Shown here: positions 36,076 through 46,003 of the stretch, piece by piece
Numbering within the stretch: position 1 is the stretch's first letter
Layout: each line of letters opens with the position of its first letter
Assembly: GCF_004342605.1 (NCBI RefSeq)
Contig: NZ_SLZL01000006.1
Location: forward strand, 186,001 to 250,000
Length of the DNA: 64,000 nucleotides
DNA from: Caulobacter sp. BK020
GTDB taxonomy: Bacteria > Pseudomonadota > Alphaproteobacteria > Caulobacterales > Caulobacteraceae
Direction of reading: 5' to 3'
The notes under the pieces: model-generated
The model's input: the letters and a program-made list of their open reading frames with translations, nothing else
Databases searched by the model: none
What the model was told of the DNA's origin: nothing
Made by a program: the position numbers and the translations under genes

Positions 36076-38919
36076 CTAGCCGCCGCCGGTCAGGCGGTTC
36101 AGCGCGGCCTGGTAGTTGGCGATCTGGTTGGTCAGATAGGCCGGGACCGGGCCGTCGGCATGGCCGGAGGACGCGGTCGCGTCAGTCCGCTTCACGCCGT
36201 TGGCGGTGTCGGCCATCTCGCGATAGGCGGTGCGCACCGCCGACAGGGCCTTGGTCATGGCCGCCACGGCGGCCTTGCGGCCAACGTCGTCGGTGAGGTC
36301 CAGGCCGGTGTCCAGCGAGAAACCGTAGATCGGACCCTTGCCGTCAGATGATACGGTCTGGCCGTGGTCGGTCTTGGTGTTGCGCACGATGCCCGGCTTC
36401 AGTCCCAGAGACTCCAGCACGTCGGTGCCGCCCTTGCCGGGCAGGATCTCGACCGTCGAGGTGGTCTGGGACGGGCTGATCCGCAGGGTGCGATTGTTGC
36501 CGACGCTGCTGAACTCGACCTTGGCGGCGAAACCCGTTGCCTTGCGGATCTTGTCGGCCAGGGTGTCCAGGGTGTCGTCGGCGGCGATCTTGATCGTGGT
36601 CAGGGTTCCGCGCGCCCGGGTGCGGACCTGGAAGGTGTCCCCCGCCCGCGCCGAGGTCGCCGAGACGATCTTGTCGGTCTGGGTAAACTTCATCTCGCCG
36701 CGCGGGATGCCGAAGATGTCCAGCGCGCTGGAGCCGGAGGCGTCGACCGCGATCGAGGTGGCGGTGGCGTAGCCGTCCTTGCCGGTCAGTCGCTGCTCCC
36801 AGGTCGCCGCGCCGGTGGCGACGTCGATCTGGGCGACATAGCCGTCCTTGTCGCCGACGGTCGGCTGGCCCGCCAGGTCTTTGCCGGCCGATCCCACCAG
36901 CCAGGCCTGGCCGTTGGACACCGCCATGCCGGTGACCGTGTCGTCGCCCGTCCCGCCATAATAGGCCAGGGTGTCCTGGCTCTTGTCGGTCAGGTCCAGC
37001 GACATCCGGGCCACGAAGCCGTCGGAACCGCCGGAGGCCGCCTTGGTCTGGTTGTTGACGTCCAGGGCGCCGTTGGTGGTGGAGCCGCCAATGTAGAGCT
37101 GGCCGTTGTCGATCGTCAGGCCGGCGATGGCGCCGCCCTTCAGCGTGCCCAGATCGCGCGTGGCGCCGGTCGTGAACGTGGCCGCCTTGGTATAGGTGGT
37201 CGGTTCGGTGACCCAGACCTCCTTGTCGTTCAGGTAGGTGCGGTCCTCGGTCACGACGCTGGTCGTTACGTCGAAGCTGCGAAGCATCGCCTCGCTGCCT
37301 TCCTTGCTGGCGACCACCACCTGCCCGCCGTTGACGACGATGCCGGCGACCGTGTCGTCGTTCTCGCTGCCGAAGTGGGTGGTGAACAGCGCCTTGGGCG
37401 TACCGGAGATGTCGGTGGCGAAACCGGTCAGGTAGCTGTCGTAGCCCCCAGCCGTGGCGCCGGTGGCCGAGCCTGGAATGTCCGACTTGGTGCGGCCGCC
37501 CACATAGACGACGCCGTCGTCGCCGAAAGCCACGGCGGTGGCCTCGTCCTCCAGCATGCCGCCCCGGCGGACCGTCCAGGTCTCGTCGCCCTTGTCGTCG
37601 TAGAGGGTGACGAAACTGTCGGTGACCGTGCCGTCGGAATCGGAGTTGATCGGGCCGTTCGCGGCGCCGGAAAGGCCGCCGGCCACCGAACCGGCGATCG
37701 CCACCTGACCATCGTCGGAGATGGCCATGTTGTAGCCGGTGGCGGTGTTGGAGGCCCCCAGGGTGCGGGCGTAAAGCAGCTTGCCCGACGAGTCGTACTT
37801 CAGCAGGGCGACGTCCTGGTCGCCCTTGATGGTCTGGGTGCTGGTCGTGCCGTCGATGTCGGCCAGCACGTAGAGCGAGCCGTCCGGGCCCGTCATGGTC
37901 TTGTGGACCGTGCTGACCGTACCCTCGAGCGTGTCGGAAAACACCTTGGTGCCCGGCGTGACGCCCGCGCCGGGACCGTACTTGGTCAGGGTGTTCTCGA
38001 TCACCGCGTCGTCGGTGGTCGTGTTCTTGTCCGGGTCCGGATTGCCCGCGGCGGTGGTGATGTAGACCGCCGGCTTCGGCGCCGGGGCCGAGAAGGTCAG
38101 GGTCTCGGTCAGGTCGCCTTTCACCTGCAGGGCGAAGTCGTCGCCGGTGGCCGGCAGCTTGACGGTCTGGCCGTTGACGGTGGTGGTGCGCTCCTCGCCC
38201 ACGGTCCGGTTGACCGCGAACTGGGTGTCGAAGCCGGCGGCGGCCAGCTTGTCGTTGAAGAAGCTGACGACGTTGGCCATCGTCCGCGGCGTGGCGCCCA
38301 TCTCCGACAGGTCCATGACCACGTCGGTGGAGACGCCGAACTTCTTGACATTCATCGTGAAGCTGACGGAGCCCTTGAAGGCGGGCACCTCGTCGTCGAC
38401 CTGGCCGCTGTAGATCTTGTTGGTGACGTAGGTGTAGTTGCTCTTGGGCACGCCGACGGTCGACTTGTCGCTGGTCATGACCGCACCGGTCGTCAGGCGC
38501 ATGCCGTCGGTGCTGAGGTTCTGGACATAGCTGTTGACCTCGTTCAGCCCTTTGCTGAACACCGCCTGCAACCGCTTGATCTCGCTGTCGGTGACGCCCT
38601 TCTCGTCCGAGCGATTGGCGATGGCCGACAGGGTGTTGAGCGCCTGGTAGGCGGCGAACAGCTTCTTGTAGTCGCCCGAGATCGTCGGGGCGGCGGCGAC
38701 CGCCGCGCCCTCGTCGACGAACTTGCGACCGTTCAGGGCGGCCTTGACCAGATCGCTGGGCTCGGTCGCCTGCCCGGTCCAGGGCGCGCTAGGCACTGCC
38801 TTGGTAGTCGAGGAGGGCGAGGTGGAGGAACCGCTGGTCGAGGCGGTCGCGTTCGCGGCTAGGCCAGCGGTCTTGGCCTGATAGTAGCCGAGCAGCAGAC
38901 TGGAATCGAAAGTGATCAC
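36076..38919 (-). CDS. flaEY: FlaEY-like flagellar regulatory protein
   Basis: A 947-residue protein. The N-terminal third begins ITFDSSLLLGYYQAKTAG and is helical. The middle (about 340-720) has repeated SBBP-like beta-propeller blades, seen as YVLADIDG, AISDDGQVAIAGS and YIGGSTTNG. Near residue 780-840 is a flagellin-hook-IN-like segment, and the end is helical. Position next to the flagellins and overall plan match the Caulobacter FlaEY protein, required for normal filament assembly. The GTG at 38919 is chosen; a TTG four codons upstream is possible. The symbol rests on location plus remembered family size, not alignment. Confidence 0.68.
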   Translation of the reverse strand: MITFDSSLLLGYYQAKTAGLAANATASTSGSSTSPSSTTKAVPSAPWTGQATEPSDLVKAALNGRKFVDEGAAVAAAPTISGDYKKLFAAYQALNTLSAIANRSDEKGVTDSEIKRLQAVFSKGLNEVNSYVQNLSTDGMRLTTGAVMTSDKSTVGVPKSNYTYVTNKIYSGQVDDEVPAFKGSVSFTMNVKKFGVSTDVVMDLSEMGATPRTMANVVSFFNDKLAAAGFDTQFAVNRTVGEERTTTVNGQTVKLPATGDDFALQVKGDLTETLTFSAPAPKPAVYITTAAGNPDPDKNTTTDDAVIENTLTKYGPGAGVTPGTKVFSDTLEGTVSTVHKTMTGPDGSLYVLADIDGTTSTQTIKGDQDVALLKYDSSGKLLYARTLGASNTATGYNMAISDDGQVAIAGSVAGGLSGAANGPINSDSDGTVTDSFVTLYDDKGDETWTVRRGGMLEDEATAVAFGDDGVVYVGGRTKSDIPGSATGATAGGYDSYLTGFATDISGTPKALFTTHFGSENDDTVAGIVVNGGQVVVASKEGSEAMLRSFDVTTSVVTEDRTYLNDKEVWVTEPTTYTKAATFTTGATRDLGTLKGGAIAGLTIDNGQLYIGGSTTNGALDVNNQTKAASGGSDGFVARMSLDLTDKSQDTLAYYGGTGDDTVTGMAVSNGQAWLVGSAGKDLAGQPTVGDKDGYVAQIDVATGAATWEQRLTGKDGYATATSIAVDASGSSALDIFGIPRGEMKFTQTDKIVSATSARAGDTFQVRTRARGTLTTIKIAADDTLDTLADKIRKATGFAAKVEFSSVGNNRTLRISPSQTTSTVEILPGKGGTDVLESLGLKPGIVRNTKTDHGQTVSSDGKGPIYGFSLDTGLDLTDDVGRKAAVAAMTKALSAVRTAYREMADTANGVKRTDATASSGHADGPVPAYLTNQIANYQAALNRLTGGG

Positions 38920-38998
38920 AGCGGGTCCCAACGGGACGCGACGCCCCTTGATTCCAAGTGTCGGCGAGGAACGCTGACGTTTCGTTAAGACGTGTGAA

Positions 38999-39553
38999 TC
39001 AGGCGGCGATCAGGTGAGCGTCGGTCAGCGAGCGCCGGACGTCGCCGCGCAACTCGCTCCACTCCTCGGCCAGAATGCCCAGCAGGACGACGTCGCGCGG
39101 CCGGCCGTCCTTGAGGACATGGCCGCGCAGATAGCCTTCGCGCCGGAAGCCTGAGGCCGCCTGGGCCTTCAGCGCCGCGTCGTTGTCGGCCATGACCTCG
39201 GCGAACACCTTGTGCAGACCCAGCTCGCCGAAGGCGCGGTCCAGGCCCAGCACCTGGGCGGCGCGCCCCACGCCCCGGCCCCGCGCCTCGGCCGAACCGA
39301 GGAACCAGTTCCATCCGGCCCGGCGGTGATGGCTGAGCAGGCCCGTCAGGGTCAGCAGGCCCGACGGTTCGCCCGAGCGGACGATCATCCAGCCGCGCAT
39401 GTCGGGATCGGACCGCAGGGCCTGGAACCAGGCGGCGTGGGCCTCGCGGCTGGGAAAGGCCGCGTCGGACATCCACCGATCGACTTCCGGCTCGCCCCGC
39501 CATTGGAACAGGATCGCCTCATCGGCGTCCGTCAGATCGCGAAGCTCGATCAT
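38999..39553 (-). CDS. GNAT acetyltransferase in flagellin cluster
   Basis: A 184-residue GCN5-type acetyltransferase. The acetyl-CoA binding loop is in SAEARGRGVGRAAQ, and the N-terminus LRDLTDADEAILFQWRGEPEV resembles PseH enzymes, which acetylate the amino sugar of pseudaminic acid. It lies between FljJ-like and FlaEY-like genes on the same strand. A second PseH-like enzyme is at 46813. A sugar or protein substrate in flagellin modification is inferred from context only. Confidence 0.8.
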   Translation of the reverse strand: MIELRDLTDADEAILFQWRGEPEVDRWMSDAAFPSREAHAAWFQALRSDPDMRGWMIVRSGEPSGLLTLTGLLSHHRRAGWNWFLGSAEARGRGVGRAAQVLGLDRAFGELGLHKVFAEVMADNDAALKAQAASGFRREGYLRGHVLKDGRPRDVVLLGILAEEWSELRGDVRRSLTDAHLIAA

Positions 39554-39612
39554 GCCGGGTCGATTCTCCCTAGTATCGTGCGGGAAAGTCTAGCCCGCCG
39601 AGGGCGTCAAGC

Positions 39613-40452
39613 CTAGCTGCCGCCGCTGAACAGCGACAGGATGATCTGCGGCGCCTGGTTGGCGATCGACAGGGCCTGGGCGCCCAGTTGCTGCTTGACC
39701 TGCAAGGCCTGCAGCCGCGCGCTTTCCTTGGCCATGTCGGCGTCGACCAGGTTGCCCACGCCGGTCTCGAGCACGTCGTTGAGCTTGGAGACGAAGGTGT
39801 TGTGGGCGTCGATCTGCTTGGCTTGCGACCCGATCGAGCCGACCGCCTGGTTCACGGCGGTCATCGTGGCGTCCAGGCGGGTCAGCACCGCCGCCGCCTG
39901 GGTCATGGTGCTGATGTTGTCGGTGGCCGTCAGGGTGTTGATCGTGCCGCCCAGCGACAGGTTCTGCAGGTTCAGCGTGATGACCGTCGCGGCGTCGGCG
40001 TCCGCCAGGAAGGTGATGTTGGTCGGCTCGCTGCCGTTGAGGATGTTGGCGCCGTCGAAGGTGGCGCTGTTGACCACCTGGGTCAGGTTCTTCAGCAGCC
40101 CCTGGAAGTCGGCGTTCAGGGCGGTGCGCGACGAGGTCGACAGCGAGGTGTCCTTGGCCGCGACCACCTTCTCGCGCATCTGGGTCAGCAGGTCGGAGAC
40201 CGATTCACCGGCGGCCAGGGCCACGTCGGTGATCGAGGTCGCGCGATCGAGGCTCATCTTCACCGCGCTCAGGGCCGAGCGATCGGCGCGCTGGTCCTGG
40301 GCGATCGACCAGACGGCGGCGTTGTCCTTGGCGGTGGAGATCGCCAGACCGGTGTTGATGCGGGACTGCACGCCCGACATCTCGTCGTTGGTCTTGTTCA
40401 GATTTTGCAGGGCGATCAGCGCGGGCTGATTGGTGTTCACGCTCAGCGTCAT
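39613..40452 (-). CDS. fljJ: Flagellin, FljJ-like
   Basis: A 279-residue flagellin lacking the hypervariable D2/D3 domains. N-terminal D0/D1: [19 protein letters not shown], with NTGLAISTAKDNAAVWSIA. C-terminal D1/D0: VDADMAKESARLQALQVKQQLGAQAL and ILSLFSGGS. It differs more from the other two flagellins than they do from one another, and the position farthest from flaF matches the 29-kDa FljJ of Caulobacter. The start at 40452 follows a GTG codon that I reject. Its leader has no clear sigma-54 site and no AAAAY hairpins. Confidence 0.9.
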   Translation of the reverse strand: MTLSVNTNQPALIALQNLNKTNDEMSGVQSRINTGLAISTAKDNAAVWSIAQDQRADRSALSAVKMSLDRATSITDVALAAGESVSDLLTQMREKVVAAKDTSLSTSSRTALNADFQGLLKNLTQVVNSATFDGANILNGSEPTNITFLADADAATVITLNLQNLSLGGTINTLTATDNISTMTQAAAVLTRLDATMTAVNQAVGSIGSQAKQIDAHNTFVSKLNDVLETGVGNLVDADMAKESARLQALQVKQQLGAQALSIANQAPQIILSLFSGGS

Positions 40453-40549
40453 CACGGTCTCCGAACGGCGGTTCTTGCCAGTGAGGCTCGGGACGCGATT
40501 CGGCGGCCGAGCAGGTCGGCCATGAAAGTGGGGCTGAGGGAGTAAGAAT

Positions 40550-40571
40550 ATGGTTAACGCACGTAAACCAT
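40550..40571. repeat. 22-bp imperfect palindrome
   Basis: ATGGTTAACGCACGTAAACCAT pairs with itself except at the centre and one position each side. It lies between the FlaG-family gene and fljJ, about 100 bases upstream of the fljJ start, and contains a TTAAC half-site. A regulator operator is possible. Confidence 0.4.
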
Positions 40572-40619
40572 GTTTCGCCTGCGACGCCAGGTCGCGGCGA
40601 GCACTGCGATGGCCAGCGC

Positions 40620-40970
40620 TCAGGTCAGGCCGTCGAAGACCTCGCCCGGGTCGTAGTGCTCGGCCTGCTTAAACCGCAGGACCTCCTCGCGTGGAAACTG
40701 TTGCAGGATGTCGCCGGTCCGACGGTCCACCGTCTTGTAGATATAGGTGCCGGTCTTGCTGTCCTGCTCGATCACCAGGCGCAGGTCTCCCGGCTGGGGC
40801 CCGTCGGCCGCCACGAACTTCTCCACGGGCGCGGGCTTTTCGGGCGCGGCTCCCCGGGTCGCGGAGGTAAAAACACCGCCTGCGGGATGACCCGGGACGG
40901 TCGAGACGGCGCCGACGACGGGCGTGGACGGCTCGGGCGGGATCGATGTCAACGCGACTTTGTTTTCCAT
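40620..40970 (-). CDS. FlaG-family flagellar protein
   Basis: A 116-residue protein. The first 65 residues are Pro/Ala-rich and probably disordered. The last 50 match the FlaG domain: LRLVIEQDSKTGTYIYKTVDRRTGDILQQFPREEVLRF, where the final part is the domain hallmark. FlaG proteins influence filament length in other bacteria. It lies between two flagellin genes, on the same strand, after two tandem hairpins. It should not be confused with the historical Caulobacter locus name flaG. Confidence 0.85.
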   Translation of the reverse strand: MENKVALTSIPPEPSTPVVGAVSTVPGHPAGGVFTSATRGAAPEKPAPVEKFVAADGPQPGDLRLVIEQDSKTGTYIYKTVDRRTGDILQQFPREEVLRFKQAEHYDPGEVFDGLT

Positions 40971-41018
40971 GACTCCTATCGCGGCCGGTTCGCGGCGGCG
41001 CCTCTAGTGATCCCTCCC

Positions 41019-41069
41019 CTCGGGCGGAAGCCCGAGAGAAAGGCGGAGGCGGACTGCAAGCCCGCCTCC
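41019..41069 (-). terminator. Tandem hairpins after fljK
   Basis: Two hairpins on the minus strand: GGAGGCGG/CCGCCTCC with a 9-base loop (41045-41069), and CTCGGGC/GCCCGAG with loop TTCC (41019-41036). They follow the FljK-like stop by 11 bases; no long U-tract is present, so termination may be incomplete. Confidence 0.7.
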
Positions 41070-41079
41070 TTCTTCGTTC

Positions 41080-41901
41080 CTATCGGAACAGGCTGAGGAT
41101 CGACGAGGTCGACTGGTTGGCGATGGACAGCGCCTGCACGCCCAGCTGCTGCTTGGTTTGCAGCGACTGCAGCTTGGCGCTTTCCTTGGCCAGGTCGGCA
41201 TCGACCAGGTTGCCCACGCCGGCGTCGAGGCTGTCCTGCAGCTTGCCGACGAAGGTCAGGTGGGTGTCCAGGCCCGTCGAGCTGGTGCCCAGCGAGGCCA
41301 GCTTGTTGGTCGCCGTGCCCAGGGCGTTGCTGATGGTGGTGATCATCGTCTTGGCCGCGGCCGCGTTGGCGAAGGTCGAGCCGGTGGTCAGGCCCAAGCC
41401 GACCAGCGACAGGGTCTTGGCGTTGACGGTGAACTGGGTGCCGTCCGAGTTGGCCAGGAAGGCCAGCTTGGTGGTCGAGCCGTCGGCGATCGAGACGCCG
41501 TTGAACTTGGCGTTGGTGACGGCCTTGGTGATCTGGTCGCGCAGGCTGTTGAAGTCCGAGACCAGGGCGTTGAACGAAGCGGTGTTCAGCGAAGTGTCGG
41601 AAGCGGCCAGGGCCTTTTCCTTCATCTTGCCCAGCAGGTCGGTGACCGTGTCGCCGGCGGCCAGGGCCACGTCGATGGTCGACTGGCCGCGTTGCAGCGA
41701 GTCCTTCACGGCGTTCAGGGAATTGGCGGTGGTCGACTGGTTCTTGGCCATCGCCCAGATCGCGCCGTTGTCCTTGGCGTTACCGACCTTCTTGCCGGTG
41801 TTGATGCGCTGCTGGGTGACCTGAAGTTCGCTGTTGGTGGCGTTCAGGTTTTGCAGGGCGATCAGGGCGCCAGCGTTCGTGTTGATGCTATTCAGCGGCA
41901 T
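41080..41901 (-). CDS. fljK: Flagellin, FljK-like
   Basis: A 273-residue flagellin with only D0 and D1. It starts [20 protein letters not shown] and ends ILSLFR. It is very similar to the FljL-like flagellin upstream (most of the sequence from [16 protein letters not shown] to [20 protein letters not shown] is shared). Context and order suggest FljK, the main filament subunit. It has a sigma-54 promoter at 41974-41988 and a structured leader. The ATG at 41901 has AGGAACTG upstream. Known in Caulobacter: FlbT acts on the fljK mRNA leader. Confidence 0.95.
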
Positions 41902-41962
41902 CGCGACAGTTCCTATTCAAGGGTTCCGACGTCATTTTGACAGCCGGGAGCATTTTGCTCGG
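41902..41962 (-). promoter_or_regulatory. fljK mRNA leader with tandem AAAAU-loop hairpins
   Basis: The transcript predicted from the sigma-54 site starts near 41962: CC, then GAGC-AAAAT-GCTC, then CCGGCTGTC-AAAAT-GACGTCGG (8 pairs, one bulged T, including one G-U pair). Both hairpins have the same AAAAT loop. They sit within the first 40 nucleotides. The same design appears in the fljL leader with different stem bases. FlbT is known to bind this leader in C. crescentus; assigning these exact hairpins to it is inference. Confidence 0.7.
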
Positions 41963-41973
41963 AGAACTAGGCA

Positions 41974-41988
41974 GCAAAGATCGGGCCA
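41974..41988 (-). promoter_or_regulatory. Sigma-54 promoter of fljK
   Basis: On the minus strand TGGCCC-GATCT-TTGC matches the -24/-12 consensus (GG, ten bases, GC). The predicted transcript start is near 41962, 60 bases before the ATG. Confidence 0.85.
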
Positions 41989-42060
41989 AAACTGCCCAGT
42001 AGGCAGAAATCGGCAACCCCTTGAACGGCTTGCATTATACTTTGATTTACCACGATTTTC

Positions 42061-42115
42061 CCCGGCAATATTTGCCCAGTGCGGGACCGGATGGGAAAAA
42101 TCTGCCGGGCAAATT
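42061..42115. promoter_or_regulatory. Probable FlbD/ftr-type enhancer for fljK
   Basis: Two GGCAA/TTGCC-type palindromic elements, CCCGGCAATATTTGCCC (42061-42077) and CTGCCGGGCAAATT (42102-42115), lie about 75-130 bases upstream of the sigma-54 promoter, the normal position for FlbD binding sites in Caulobacter flagellar genes. The assignment is from position and pattern only. Confidence 0.5.
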
Positions 42116-42142
42116 CAGGTTGAGTTCGGATAATCGACGAAC

Positions 42143-42180
42143 GAAAAAAGAAATGCCGGACGGCCCGCAGGCCGTCCGGC
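42143..42180 (-). terminator. Terminator of fljL
   Basis: On the minus strand GCCGGACGGCC, loop TGCG, GGCCGTCCGGC (11 pairs) is followed by ATTTCTTTTTTCG. It begins about 31 bases after the stop codon. Confidence 0.9.
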
Positions 42181-42210
42181 TTTGATCGCTTCTTGAAGCC
42201 TAGTCGCCGA

Positions 42211-43029
42211 TCACTTGAACAGCGAAAGGATCGACTGAGGCGTCTGGTTCGCGATCGACAGGGCCTGAACACCCAGTTGCTGCTTGGTCTGCAGCGATTG
42301 CAGCTTGGCGCTTTCCTTGGCCAGGTCCGCATCGACCAGGTTGCCGACACCCGCGTCCAGGCTGTCCTGCAGCTTACCCGTGAAGGTCAGGTGCATGTCC
42401 AGGCCCGTCGAGCTGGTGCCCAGGTTCGCCAACTTGTTCGTCGCCGTGGTCAGGGCCGTCGTGATCGTGGCGATCATCGTCTTGGCCGCGGCCGCGTTGG
42501 CGAAGGTCGACGTCGCCGTCAGACCCAGGCCGACCAGCGACAGGGTCTTGGCGTTCACCGTGTAGGCGACACCGTCCGAGTTGCTGAGGAACTGCAGCTT
42601 GGAGGTCGTGCCGTCCACGAGGCTGACGCCGTTGAATTGAGCGTTGGTGACAGCCTTGGTGATCTGGTCGCGCAGCGAGGTGAAGTCCGAGACCAGGGCG
42701 TTGAACGAAGCGGTGTTCAGCGAGGTGTCGGAAGCGGCCAGGGCCTTTTCCTTCATCTTGCCGAGCAGGTCGGTGATGGTGTCGCCAGCGGCAAGGCCCA
42801 CATCGATCGTCGATTGTCCGCGCTGGAGCGAGTCCTTCACGGCGTTCAACGAGCTCGACGTCGCGCTTTGCATCTTAGCCATCGACCAGATCGCGCCGTT
42901 GTCCTTGGCGTTGGAGATCTTCTTGCCGGTGTTGATGCGTTGTTGGGTGCTTTGGAGCTCCGAGTTGGTGGCGTTCAGGTTTTGCAGCGCGATCATGGCG
43001 CCGGCATTGGTGTTGATCGAGTTCAGCAT
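42211..43029 (-). CDS. fljL: Flagellin, FljL-like
   Basis: A 272-residue D0/D1 flagellin starting [19 protein letters not shown] and ending QSILSLFK. It is a close paralogue of the FljK-like gene. Start choice: ATG 43029 aligns with the family; an in-frame ATG five codons upstream (43044) is placed inside a leader hairpin loop (AAAATGG). The promoter is sigma-54 type at 43102-43116. Position next to flaF fits FljL. Confidence 0.94.
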
Positions 43030-43090
43030 GATGGTTCTCGCCATTTTGGGAGGATTGCCCCGGCGTTTTGCCGGTCGGGCGTTTTGCCCG
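43030..43090 (-). promoter_or_regulatory. fljL mRNA leader with tandem AAAAC-loop hairpins
   Basis: From the predicted start near 43090 the leader reads CGGGC-AAAAC-GCCCG (43090-43076), GA, CCGGC-AAAAC-GCCGG (43074-43060), and near the start codon CTCCC-AAAAT-GG-C-GAG (43052-43037), where the last side contains the GCGAGA purine stretch just before the ATG. Three hairpins, all with AAAAY loops. The stem bases differ from those of the fljK leader while pairing is kept. Candidate FlbT-responsive element. Confidence 0.72.
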
Positions 43091-43101
43091 CAGAACCCAT
43101 C

Positions 43102-43116
43102 GCAAGCGGCGGGCCA
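43102..43116 (-). promoter_or_regulatory. Sigma-54 promoter of fljL
   Basis: TGGCCC-GCCGC-TTGC on the minus strand fits the -24/-12 consensus. The predicted transcript start is near 43090, giving a leader of about 61 nucleotides. Confidence 0.85.
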
Positions 43117-43191
43117 GTTGGCGCCGCCTTGGCGAAATTTCTAAAATTCTGATTTTATTCGATTTCTACGAGCCCAAAGCCGAATACGAGA

Positions 43192-43250
43192 CCGCCCGGC
43201 GAATGCAGAATTCGCCGGGCGGCAGGTTTTTCCGGAAAGGTTTGCCGGAG
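43192..43250. promoter_or_regulatory. Perfect 13-bp palindrome and GGTTTGCCGG element upstream of fljL
   Basis: CCGCCCGGCGAAT, GCAGA, ATTCGCCGGGCGG is a perfect 13-base stem (43192-43222), followed by CCGGAAAGGTTTGCCGGAG (43232-43250). It lies between the end of flaF and the fljL promoter, where a FlbD enhancer would be, and may also end flaF transcription. No U-tract follows on the flaF strand. Confidence 0.5.
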
Positions 43251-43276
43251 GGGCGGAAGCGCCCTCCCCGCCTGGA

Positions 43277-43639
43277 TCAGGCGGCGTCGGCGCGGCCCGC
43301 CAGGCCTTGCATGATCATGCGATTGATCTCGATCAGCGGCTCGAAATCCTCCTCCTTGCGCATGATGGCGCTGGAGTGGCGGCCAACCCAGAGGCTGAGC
43401 GAGATGATGCTGGCGCGCAGCTGCACCGGCAGGGTGTTCTCCGGCAATGAGCAGTCGGTCGCCAGGGCCGACCAGACGCGGCGGTTCCAGTCCAGGGCGT
43501 CGATGCGCGTAGCGATGTCGTCCGCCGGAGCCTCGGACGCCGCCATCAGCGCGCGCGTCACCTGACCGAACAGACGGTACTCCATCTCACGCGGGTTTTC
43601 GGTCCGCGTCGCCGTCTGCTGATAGGCCCTAAGAGACAT
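43277..43639 (-). CDS. flaF: Flagellin biosynthesis regulator FlaF
   Basis: A 120-residue Fla[33 protein letters not shown], with the [14 protein letters not shown] motif and [11 protein letters not shown] end. In Caulobacter FlaF promotes flagellin synthesis and secretion, acting against FlbT. Its start overlaps the flbT stop by 11 bases, so the two are coupled. Confidence 0.95.
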
Positions 43640-44024
43640 GCCCCAACCTCTGATCTTCGTATTCGATTAGCTTACGGCTCAGCATGAGCGCCTTGTAGTA
43701 CTCGCGCGCCATCACATGCTTGGAGATGGCGATGCAGTCGCTCAGCACGTCGGGATTGCGCACTACGCCCATGAATTCGGTCAGGCGGGTGGCGAACTCT
43801 TCGTACTGACGCTCGGCGGCGGACTCGTCCAGGTACATCATCATGACCGGGAAATAGATCCGGCGCGCCGGCGTGGTCGCCTCGTCAGGCTGCATGATGT
43901 CCTTCTCACGCAGCACCGAGGCCTTGTTCTGAAGCACCAGCACGCCGCGGCGGTCGCCATTCTGGACCACCGCGCCGTTCAGCACGAACTTCTCGCCGGG
44001 TTTCAGCGACAGCTTCAATGGCAC
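43629..44024 (-). CDS. flbT: Flagellin mRNA regulator FlbT
   Basis: A 131-residue FlbT, beginning (GTG) [20 protein letters not shown], then [16 protein letters not shown] and FPVMMMYLD. The GTG at 44024 has GAGGGAGCGGCCCT upstream and matches the family start, so longer frames upstream are rejected. In C. crescentus FlbT binds the flagellin mRNA leader and lowers its stability until the hook is complete. It lies in the same window as leaders with repeated AAAAY hairpins. Confidence 0.95.
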
Positions 44025-44203
44025 AGGGCCGCTCCCTCTCGCATTGCTGTGTCGCCCCACCCGCCGAGATGACGGTTTCGAAGCAGAAGCTAGGCGGAGG
44101 CGGTTAACGTCCCCTTGCCAAGCCTGCGACCGTGGGACGCAGCTTAGGATACAATTAAGCATACTGACCCAGAGGATGACTCTCTCAAATCGCCAAGGCC
44201 TCA
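44025..44203. promoter_or_regulatory. Divergent flbT/flmG promoter region
   Basis: A 179-base gap between two divergent flagellar units. GGTTAACGTCCCCTTGCC (44102-44119) has a TTAA half of a CtrA site but no good second half. No sigma-54 site was seen. The 44150-44170 part is AT-richer. Confidence 0.4.
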
Positions 44204-46003
44204 ATGATGTCCCGCGTTCGCGACACCCAGATCTCGGCCAGCGCGCTGGCCATCGCCCAGGAGGCGGTCGCCCAGGCCGTTAACCTCGGCTTCAAGACGA
44301 CGGCCGGCGACGCGGCCTCGGCCGAGGCCCTGGCGCGGCTGGACCGCCAGACCAACGAGGTCCGCAACCAGGAAACCGCCCGGCTGCTGGCCCGGTCCGT
44401 CCACGCCATGCAGAACCGCGACTTCGCCGAAGGCGAGAAGCTGGCGCTGAAGGCCCTGGAGCGGGACGACAAGCTGGGCGTGGCCTGGCACGTCCTGGGC
44501 ATCGCCCGCGAGAAGATCGGCGATTTCGCCGGCTCGATGCGCTGCTACGAGGCGGCGCTCAAGCTGCTGCCCGACCACGGCGCGGTGGCCGGCGACCTGG
44601 GGCGCCTGGCGTTCCGCATGGACATGCCGGAAATCGCCGCCAAGTTCTTCATGCACTACATCAACGCCCGCCCGGGCGACCTGGAAGGCGTCAACAACCT
44701 GGCCTGCGCCCTGCGCGACCTCAACCGCTGCGACGAGGCCATCGAAGTCCTGCGCCCGGCGATCAACGACAATCCCGAACAGCCGCTGCTGTGGAACACC
44801 CTGGGCACGGTGATGTGCAGCCTGGGCGACGGCAGGACGGCGTTGACCTTCTTCGACGAGGCCCTGCGGCTGGCCCCGAACTTCGGCAAGGCCTACCACA
44901 ACCGCGCCTACGCCAAGCTCGACCTGGGCGACGTCGCGGGGGCCCTGGCCGATTGCGACCTGGCCATCGCCGCGGTCGAATCGCCTGAGGATCTGGCGAC
45001 CATGCAGTTCGGCCGGGCGACCATCCTGCTGGCCCTGGGCCGGGTCGAGGAAGGCTGGAAGGCCTACGAGGCCCGCTTCTCCAAGGATCTGGTCGAGGCC
45101 CCGCGCTTCACGATCGAGGCCTCCCGCTGGCGCCCGGGCATGGACCTGGCCGGCAAGTCGCTGATGATTTGCGCCGAACAGGGCCTGGGCGACGAGGTCA
45201 TGTTCGCCAACATGCTGCCGGACGTGATCGAGGCCCTGGGCCCCGCCGGCAAGCTGACCCTGGCGGTCGAGCGACGGCTGGTCCCGCTGTTCAGGCGCTC
45301 GTTCCCCAAGGCCGACGTCTTCCCGCACAAGACCGTTTCCTACGAGGGCCGAGTCTATCGCGGGGCGCCCGAGATCGAGGACTGGAGCGGCGTCGACTTC
45401 TGGACCCCGATGGGCGACCTGCTGGAAACCTTCCGCCCCAGCGTGGCCGCGTTCCCCGACCGGCGGAACTTCCTTGAGGCTGATCCGGTTCGGGTGGCGC
45501 ACTGGCGGCGGACGCTGGAGGACGCGCCCAAGGGTCCCAAGGTCGGGCTGCTGTGGAAGAGCCTGAAACTGACCGGCGAACGCGCCCGCCAGTTCTCGCC
45601 CTTCATGCTGTGGCGGCCGGTGCTGGAAACGCCGGGGATCACCTTCGTCAACCTGCAGTACGGCGACTGCGACGAGGAGATCGCCCTGGCCAAGGCGGAG
45701 TTCGGCGTCGACATCTGGCGGCCGCCTGGCATCGACCTGAAGCAGGACCTGGACGATGTCGCCGCCCTGTGCTGCGCCATGGACCTGATCGTCGGCTTCT
45801 CGAACGCCACCACCAACCTGGGCGGAGCCTGCGGGGCGCCGATCTGGATGCTGACCGGAGCCTCGTCCTGGACCCGCCTGGGCGCCCAGACCTGGCCCTG
45901 GTATCCGCAGACCCGCTGCTTCATCACGCCGGACTTCAACGACTGGACTCCGACCATGCAGGAGGTGGGCGCCGCCTTGCGCGAACGCTTCCCGGCCGGC
46001 TGA
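44204..46003 (+). CDS. flmG: TPR-glycosyltransferase, FlmG-like flagellin modification protein
   Basis: A 599-residue soluble protein. The first 300 residues hold several TPR units (EGEKLALKALERDDKLG, ALKLLPDHGAVAGDLG, LWNTLGTVMCSLGDGRTALTF); the rest is a GT-B-like part with EQGLGDEVMFANMLP, VGLLWKSLKLTG and CAMDLIVGFSNATTNLGGACGAP. FlmG of Caulobacter has this plan: TPRs bind flagellin and the C-terminal part transfers pseudaminic acid. It is the first gene of a divergent operon opposite flbT. Older literature calls the gene here flbA, but I cannot verify this. Confidence 0.8.
   Translation: MMSRVRDTQISASALAIAQEAVAQAVNLGFKTTAGDAASAEALARLDRQTNEVRNQETARLLARSVHAMQNRDFAEGEKLALKALERDDKLGVAWHVLGIAREKIGDFAGSMRCYEAALKLLPDHGAVAGDLGRLAFRMDMPEIAAKFFMHYINARPGDLEGVNNLACALRDLNRCDEAIEVLRPAINDNPEQPLLWNTLGTVMCSLGDGRTALTFFDEALRLAPNFGKAYHNRAYAKLDLGDVAGALADCDLAIAAVESPEDLATMQFGRATILLALGRVEEGWKAYEARFSKDLVEAPRFTIEASRWRPGMDLAGKSLMICAEQGLGDEVMFANMLPDVIEALGPAGKLTLAVERRLVPLFRRSFPKADVFPHKTVSYEGRVYRGAPEIEDWSGVDFWTPMGDLLETFRPSVAAFPDRRNFLEADPVRVAHWRRTLEDAPKGPKVGLLWKSLKLTGERARQFSPFMLWRPVLETPGITFVNLQYGDCDEEIALAKAEFGVDIWRPPGIDLKQDLDDVAALCCAMDLIVGFSNATTNLGGACGAPIWMLTGASSWTRLGAQTWPWYPQTRCFITPDFNDWTPTMQEVGAALRERFPAG

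Follow-up and report, generated by a model that had tools for sequence, protein, structure and literature searches.

The mRNA of the first structural flagellin gene (fljL-type) in the window, i.e. the whole 64,000-nucleotide stretch of Caulobacter sp. BK020 DNA analysed here, is predicted to begin with two tandem AAAAC-loop hairpins, with a weaker third element after them that covers the ribosome-binding region. Such hairpins are likely the means by which FlbT restrains flagellin production, because the same design fronts flagellin genes across many FlbT-carrying alphaproteobacteria, and the leader probably is a conserved structured RNA that would let FlbT silence flagellin mRNA as long as the hook-basal body is unfinished. 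From sequence comparison, the leader is best read as a putative, conserved FlbT-responsive RNA, part of a system that resembles that of CsrA but has an altered loop specificity.

According to the accessible portions of two sources, FlbT targets flagellin leaders in Caulobacter, where it promotes decay or represses translation, and has been proposed to be an activator in Brucella (PMC4347634, PMC3930126). Repression of flagellin mRNA by FlbT until the hook-basal body is complete is attributed to Anderson and Gober 2000 (as cited in the accessible portions of PMC4347634, PMC3930126 and PMC7591256), and FljJ is described as a co-repressor, a binding partner of FlbT that is lost through secretion (PMC7591256, accessible portion). 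A 2015 review lists, in its accessible text, the RNA motif of FlbT as unknown and the mechanism as unresolved (PMC4347634), and the FlbT and CsrA systems have been called possibly analogous (PMC4894983, accessible text). As far as their accessible portions go, PMC4347634, PMC3930126 and PMC7591256 give no recognition element for this regulation, be it a sequence or a structure, whereas the present analysis defines a covarying, class-wide hairpin module. The accessible parts of the openly licensed literature on FlbT (flagellin leaders, stem-loops, RNA motifs, CsrA) contain no description of the loop code or of a kinship between FlbT and CsrA; partial precedence for the structure of the fljK leader in the FlbT paper of 2000 is likely. 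FlbT action on flagellin leaders was reported in 2000; a covarying hairpin-loop code makes both the motif and the mechanism directly testable.

The flagellar cluster of the window lies on the minus strand and comprises flbT, flaF, two structural flagellin genes, a FlaG-like gene (Pfam score under the cut-off) and an fljJ-type flagellin gene (Table 1). The names fljL, fljK and fljJ are those of the preliminary description and of what we take to be the gene order of C. crescentus. The module is also present in the leaders of two more flagellin genes of the same genome, on contigs C9 and C32. Divergent from flbT, a gene at 44204-46003 (plus strand) encodes a protein in which TPR domains were found; it is probably the flagellin glycosyltransferase FlmG, a name that stands in the accessible portion of PMC7591256. 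Downstream of the flagellin cluster, a 951-residue open reading frame (36076-38931, minus strand) has no Pfam match. The interval between flaF and the first flagellin gene (43184-43273, minus strand) holds strong inverted repeats, e.g. GCCGCCCGGCGAAT...ATTCGCCGGGCGG, and probably serves as a terminator; Rfam gives a weak hit to Pxr there, under the threshold.

Table 1. Coordinates of promoters, leader elements and genes of the flagellar cluster in the window.
Feature	Position	Strand	Basis or remark
sigma-54-type promoter of fljL-type gene, TGGCCCG-CCGC-TTGC = TGGCCCGCCGCTTGC	43102..43116	-	sequence
fljL leader hairpin 1, CGGGC-AAAAC-GCCCG	43076..43090	-	at predicted mRNA 5' end
fljL leader hairpin 2, CCGGC-AAAAC-GCCGG	43060..43074	-	sequence, predicted fold, relatives
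fljL third element, CTCCC-AAAAT-GG(C)GAG	43037..43052	-	weaker; local variant of CCARAAYGG over ribosome-binding region
sigma-54-type promoter of second flagellin, TGGCCCG-ATCT-TTGC = TGGCCCGATCTTTGC	41974..41988	-	sequence
fljK-type leader hairpin 1, GAGC-AAAAT-GCTC	41948..41960	-	R1 whole-genome hit, E 5.1e-10
fljK-type leader hairpin 2, CCGGC(T)GTC-AAAAT-GACGTCGG	41926..41947	-	sequence and fljK-class alignment
CCT-TGAAT-AGG over ribosome-binding site of second flagellin, possible third element	41912..41922	-	sequence; inference
flbT (GTG start)	43629..44024	-	Pfam PF07378, E 2.1e-46; putative hairpin reader
flaF	43277..43639	-	Pfam PF07309
first structural flagellin, fljL-type	42211..43029	-	Pfam Flagellin_N/C; start codon 43029-43027
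second structural flagellin, fljK-type	41080..41901	-	Pfam search
fljJ-type flagellin, 52% identical to first flagellin	39613..40455	-	leader without two-hairpin module

The fljL transcript is predicted to start at 43090, which is 12 nt past the GC at -12 and is the first base of hairpin 1. The tandem AAAAC hairpins and the third, AAAAT hairpin claimed in the preliminary description are found at 43090-43037, and all three appear in both the minimum-energy and the centroid predicted structures; the linker between the first two, given there as GA, is a single A (43075), the G belonging to stem 1. Their loops had been described as AAAA plus pyrimidine, which holds for the window; A[A/G]AA(Y) is the better notation, and the second loop differs in some Caulobacter fljL leaders (AATAC, AATAG and others). 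The extra in-frame ATG said to lie, along with the purines, under the third hairpin is real (43044-43042, inside loop 3), but it is not conserved: most relatives have AAAACGG at that place, and the conserved form in fljL-type leaders is CCARAAYGG.

The 62-nt fljL leader folds at -24.3 kcal/mol (z -2.77, with 2/200 shuffles folding equally well), and longer pieces of 74 and 77 nt reach z -1.81 and -1.91 (9/200 and 7/200 shuffles). Folding energy alone is modest evidence, and the comparison with relatives is decisive for the fljL hairpins; a chance origin is excluded by covariation and enrichment in relatives, not by the energy. The leader of the second, fljK-type flagellin gene, which the preliminary description did not mention, carries the same module. 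On reading the sequence, no two-hairpin pair was found in the fljJ-type leader of the window. Rfam returned nothing at gathering score for window positions 39500-44300 and 0 matches at that score over 40 class loci. The flg-Rhizobiales RNA (Rfam RF01736; PMC2864571, accessible portion) is similar by name, as a flagellar RNA motif of Alphaproteobacteria, but a search with its model found nothing at E<=5 in the region covered within the window and nothing at gathering score in those 40 loci.

The comparison with relatives drew on 147 flagellin leaders of the window and of 71 loci; a search of 149 Caulobacteraceae genomes supplied most of them. They fall into two classes, fljK-type leaders, in which hairpin 1 precedes a hairpin 2 that is long and bulged and then CCTTGAAAAGGA-like purines, and fljL-type leaders with two hairpins and then CCGACCARAAYGGWAGG; the set of the latter class comprised 47 leaders after removal of four misassigned loci and duplicates. 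The fljK-class alignment (A1) holds 49 of 52 segments, three of fljL type having been excluded, and five leaders gave no pair. Here 93.7% of cells are paired, as compared to 83.2% in shuffled and at most 43.9% in slid controls, and 8/12 pairs have changed on both sides, with 61 double-change cells vs 16.0 in shuffled alignments (0/500). The stems vary, and each A of the loop is either invariant or conserved to 90% or more. Of the 83 leaders in which a sigma-54 site as well as a hairpin was recognised, 74 have their first stem beginning 0-2 nt past the predicted +1; 32 further leaders had no sigma-54 site or no hairpin under the rule used. Of leaders L068, L069 and L071, which belong to flagellin genes elsewhere in the genome in Caulobacter relatives, several keep the hairpins and have no sigma-54 site recognised at the usual distance.

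In named genomes, 84/89 leaders not labelled fljJ have an A[A/G]AA hairpin, as do 18/45 labelled J, a label contaminated by at least three of the 18, which come from Brevundimonas and Phenylobacterium and are of the fljL class. Six true Caulobacter fljJ leaders (L228, L230, L231, L233, L235, L236) carry a single A[A/G]AA hairpin near the start and no 5' pair; this hairpin, e.g. CGGCG-AGAA-CGCCG, lies 22-24 nt ahead of the start codon. The use of fljJ as a clean negative control is weakened by these six leaders.

Hairpins of at least 4 bp with an A[A/G]AA loop were counted across the class and compared to dinucleotide shuffles; near-identical leaders were merged, L360 (from a genome without CsrA) was dropped, and L077 and L086, being from Caulobacteraceae, were taken out of the class group. 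In these group counts, which ignore phylogeny and are class-wide confounded by it, with FlbT-negative genomes carrying other flagellin types, such hairpins occur in 59/70 distinct structural-flagellin leaders of Caulobacteraceae (expected 3.3; two or more in 25, expected 0.08), in 19/33 short-flagellin leaders of other Caulobacterales (expected 1.4; two or more in 13, expected 0.0), in 24/43 leaders of other FlbT-positive Alphaproteobacteria (expected 1.55), in 2/21 fljJ-like leaders (expected 0.33) and in 0/28 flagellin leaders of FlbT-negative, CsrA-positive genomes (expected 0.67). The rule is failed by 11/70 Caulobacteraceae leaders and by 19/43 of the other FlbT-positive ones. Hairpins with the AGGA loop of CsrA type are the mirror image: they were found in 8/28 FlbT-negative, CsrA-positive leaders (expected 0.42), and in 0/70 structural Caulobacteraceae, 1/21 fljJ-like, 1/33 other Caulobacterales short-flagellin and 0/43 other FlbT-positive leaders. 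A[A/G]AA with FlbT versus AGGA with CsrA constitutes a natural contrast. CAGAANGG or a close variant lies at most 40 nt from the start in 32/70 structural Caulobacteraceae, 12/33 other Caulobacterales short-flagellin and 13/43 other FlbT-positive leaders, and in 0/28 FlbT-negative, CsrA-positive and 0/21 fljJ-like ones. The three-part design, two hairpins and CCAGAAYGG over the ribosome-binding site, was read directly in other Caulobacterales and in other orders.

Whole genomes were scanned with a covariance model of K-class leaders (R1) and with a model of the two hairpins plus third element (R2), both of which give rough E-values. In the window's own genome each model matches the same four sites at E<=0.1, all of them flagellin leaders. 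R1 matches 120/149 Caulobacteraceae genomes at E<=0.1, FlbT being present in 131/149; at E<=0.001 it matches 106/131 with FlbT vs 1/18 without, the sole one (G069) being a fragmented assembly. Its top hits sit 24-32 nt upstream of listed flagellin matches in 73 of the 79 cases used, and of the six unmatched ones four are flagellin leaders, the fifth is L150 and the sixth G111:C6. Beyond the family, R1 gives best E-values of 0.0015 in the class and 0.0033 in the order, which is at chance level; the former hit is a true flagellin leader (L131). The notion of a family-only element, drawn from R1, was overturned by direct reading of leaders and by R2.

R2 was trained on 13 leaders, whose alignment has 17 double-change cells vs 6.4 in shuffled ones (0/500), and was run on 289 class genomes typed for FlbT, 99 of them positive. 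At E<=0.005 it matched 20 genomes, 20/20 with FlbT; 13 of these 20 gave no training sequence (11 families), some of the 13 sharing a genus or family with a training genome. Weaker hits resemble chance, the next one (G188, E 0.0056) lying in a genome without FlbT. The inspected hits are directly upstream of flagellins, with four exceptions (L405, L407, L409, L401), of which L409 precedes a 224-residue open reading frame and L401 has no fitting gene. At L405 (G341 C144:99159-99210) and L407 (G433 C6:14542-14594), from two genomes of one genus, the element stands directly before an 81-residue open reading frame just upstream of flbT, a placement that would fit FlbT autoregulation. The covariance-model comparison proposed in the preliminary description was hence passed, with strong stem covariation, a nearly fixed loop, restriction to flagellin leaders and co-occurrence with FlbT; the interpretation given there, that a repeated AAAAY-loop hairpin may be the recognition element of FlbT, is partly supported. 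The fljL leader of the window is itself a flagellin leader, and flbT is present in its genome.

The following mechanism may be proposed. The data argue strongly for a transcript that would open with one or two A[A/G]AA(Y) hairpins, the first at the extreme 5' end; a smaller CCAGAAYGG element, with the ribosome-binding purines inside it, would come next. Co-occurrence supports a second step, in which FlbT would read the loops, with two sites per dimer as in CsrA. The 5' hairpins would then anchor FlbT, such that the third element becomes occupied, the ribosome-binding site covered and the mRNA open to decay. Hairpins 1 and 2 as a 5'-terminal anchor, together with the third site on the ribosome-binding region, would represent the missing cis element; FlbT may bridge anchor and third site, blocking ribosomes. 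Repression, as published elsewhere, would require FlbT-bound FljJ and stop once FljJ is secreted.

Alternatively, the hairpins might be stems that stabilise a highly abundant mRNA at its 5' terminus, with loops that are just favourable and FlbT acting elsewhere. A stem in 5'-terminal position slows mRNA decay in general, flagellin mRNAs are abundant and hairpin 1 begins at the predicted 5' end; yet stabilising stems need no fixed loop, while the As of the loop show a conservation of 90% or more over varying stems, and the module follows FlbT (0/28 flagellin leaders in FlbT-negative genomes), so that we consider this explanation unlikely. We hold it to be very unlikely that the loops are read by an antisense RNA or by another RNA-binding protein such as Hfq. 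Hfq prefers A-rich single strands, which such loops would generally offer, and flbT may just mark the flagellar type, but the leaders of FlbT-negative relatives are without the loops, although proteins of the Hfq type presumably exist there too, and the model hits in the window's own genome are confined to flagellin leaders, unlike those expected for a global regulator. A role as transcription-factor binding sites in the DNA, on the downstream side of the sigma-54 promoter right at which the repeats begin, is hardly credible in view of the selection on pairing (8/12 pairs changed on both sides) and of the persistence of the module without a recognisable sigma-54 site, e.g. in flagellin leaders L068 and L069.

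As the putative reader of the loops, FlbT invites comparison with CsrA. CsrA recognises GGA in a hairpin loop (consensus RUACARGGAUGU), bridges two sites 10-63 nt apart and has L4 and R44 as critical residues (PMC7652899, accessible portion). The RNAs are alike in that small hairpins recur close to the start codon, each with a purine loop that stays fixed, and in their flagellin targets; they differ in the loop itself, which with FlbT is A[A/G]AA(Y) instead of GGA, save for one Caulobacterales group with AGGA(Y). None of the fljL loops in the window (AAAAC, AAAAC, AAAAT) holds GGA, and PF02599 (CsrA) has no match in its genome. Among 190 class genomes, 36 carry csrA, and only one of the 36 (G234) has FlbT, with about 12 expected at the 34% background if phylogeny is ignored.

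On the protein side, FlbT residues 1-44 are nearly invariant across Caulobacteraceae. In a profile comparison (hhalign) that was prompted by eye and is hence post hoc, with independent controls, FlbT 2-39 aligns with CsrA 2-45 (probability 38.7, P 3.2e-4); the N-terminal parts alone give probability 70.1, P 4e-5 and a score of 27.1, as compared to maxima of 20.4 in 300 column shuffles and 20.9 in 309 windows of other proteins. The positions of CsrA L4 and R44 align with L4 and the invariant R38 of FlbT, and the similarity covers the whole RNA-binding unit, remotely (38.7 to 70.1). FlbT differs from CsrA in having an extra helical domain, and the Pfam CsrA model does not match it: at E<=10, none of the matches obtained with 32 FlbTs is PF02599. 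Foldseek and VIA-align found no CsrA fold for the N-terminal or the full FlbT model, models which are weak in that part (pLDDT about 50 at the N-terminus within the whole protein; pTM 0.43 when modelled alone); the weak N-terminal model has strands at 3-6, 11-14, 17-20 and 28-31 and no PDB match. For the C-terminal part of FlbT, considered as a possible helical bundle of the FliS-like flagellin chaperone kind, the fold search aligned the FliS-flagellin complex 5maw_E (Z 8.7, rmsd 2.6, 82 aligned) and 1ory_A (Z 7.9, rmsd 2.6, 84 aligned), at levels that are not significant for helical bundles. No relative of FlbT was found in viral contigs.

In our view, the FlbT N-terminus is likely a divergent CsrA-like RNA-binding unit, with the A[A/G]AA loop as the counterpart of the AGGA of CsrA. 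Tentatively, and with some doubt, we hypothesize that FlbT is related to CsrA, its RNA-binding unit having been fused to a helical domain that senses flagellin, and that it changed specificity from AGGA to A[A/G]AA and took over flagellin control from CsrA in many Alphaproteobacteria, a long-flagellin Caulobacterales branch with divergent FlbT still using AGGA. If so, an RNA-binding repressor and a flagellin sensor would be united in one protein, stand-alone CsrA and the assembly checkpoint of the Caulobacter flagellum would go back to a common origin, and a shift in the specificity for RNA loops would be traceable through evolution.

In the long-flagellin Caulobacterales group, 0/12 leaders have A[A/G]AA hairpins and 7/12 have AGGA ones (expected 0.13). 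The one such genome checked (G330) has no CsrA, and divergent flbT genes adjoin several of these flagellins; loop type may follow FlbT subtype in Caulobacterales. Leaders L206-L215 of this group display a GTC-AGGAY-GAC hairpin.
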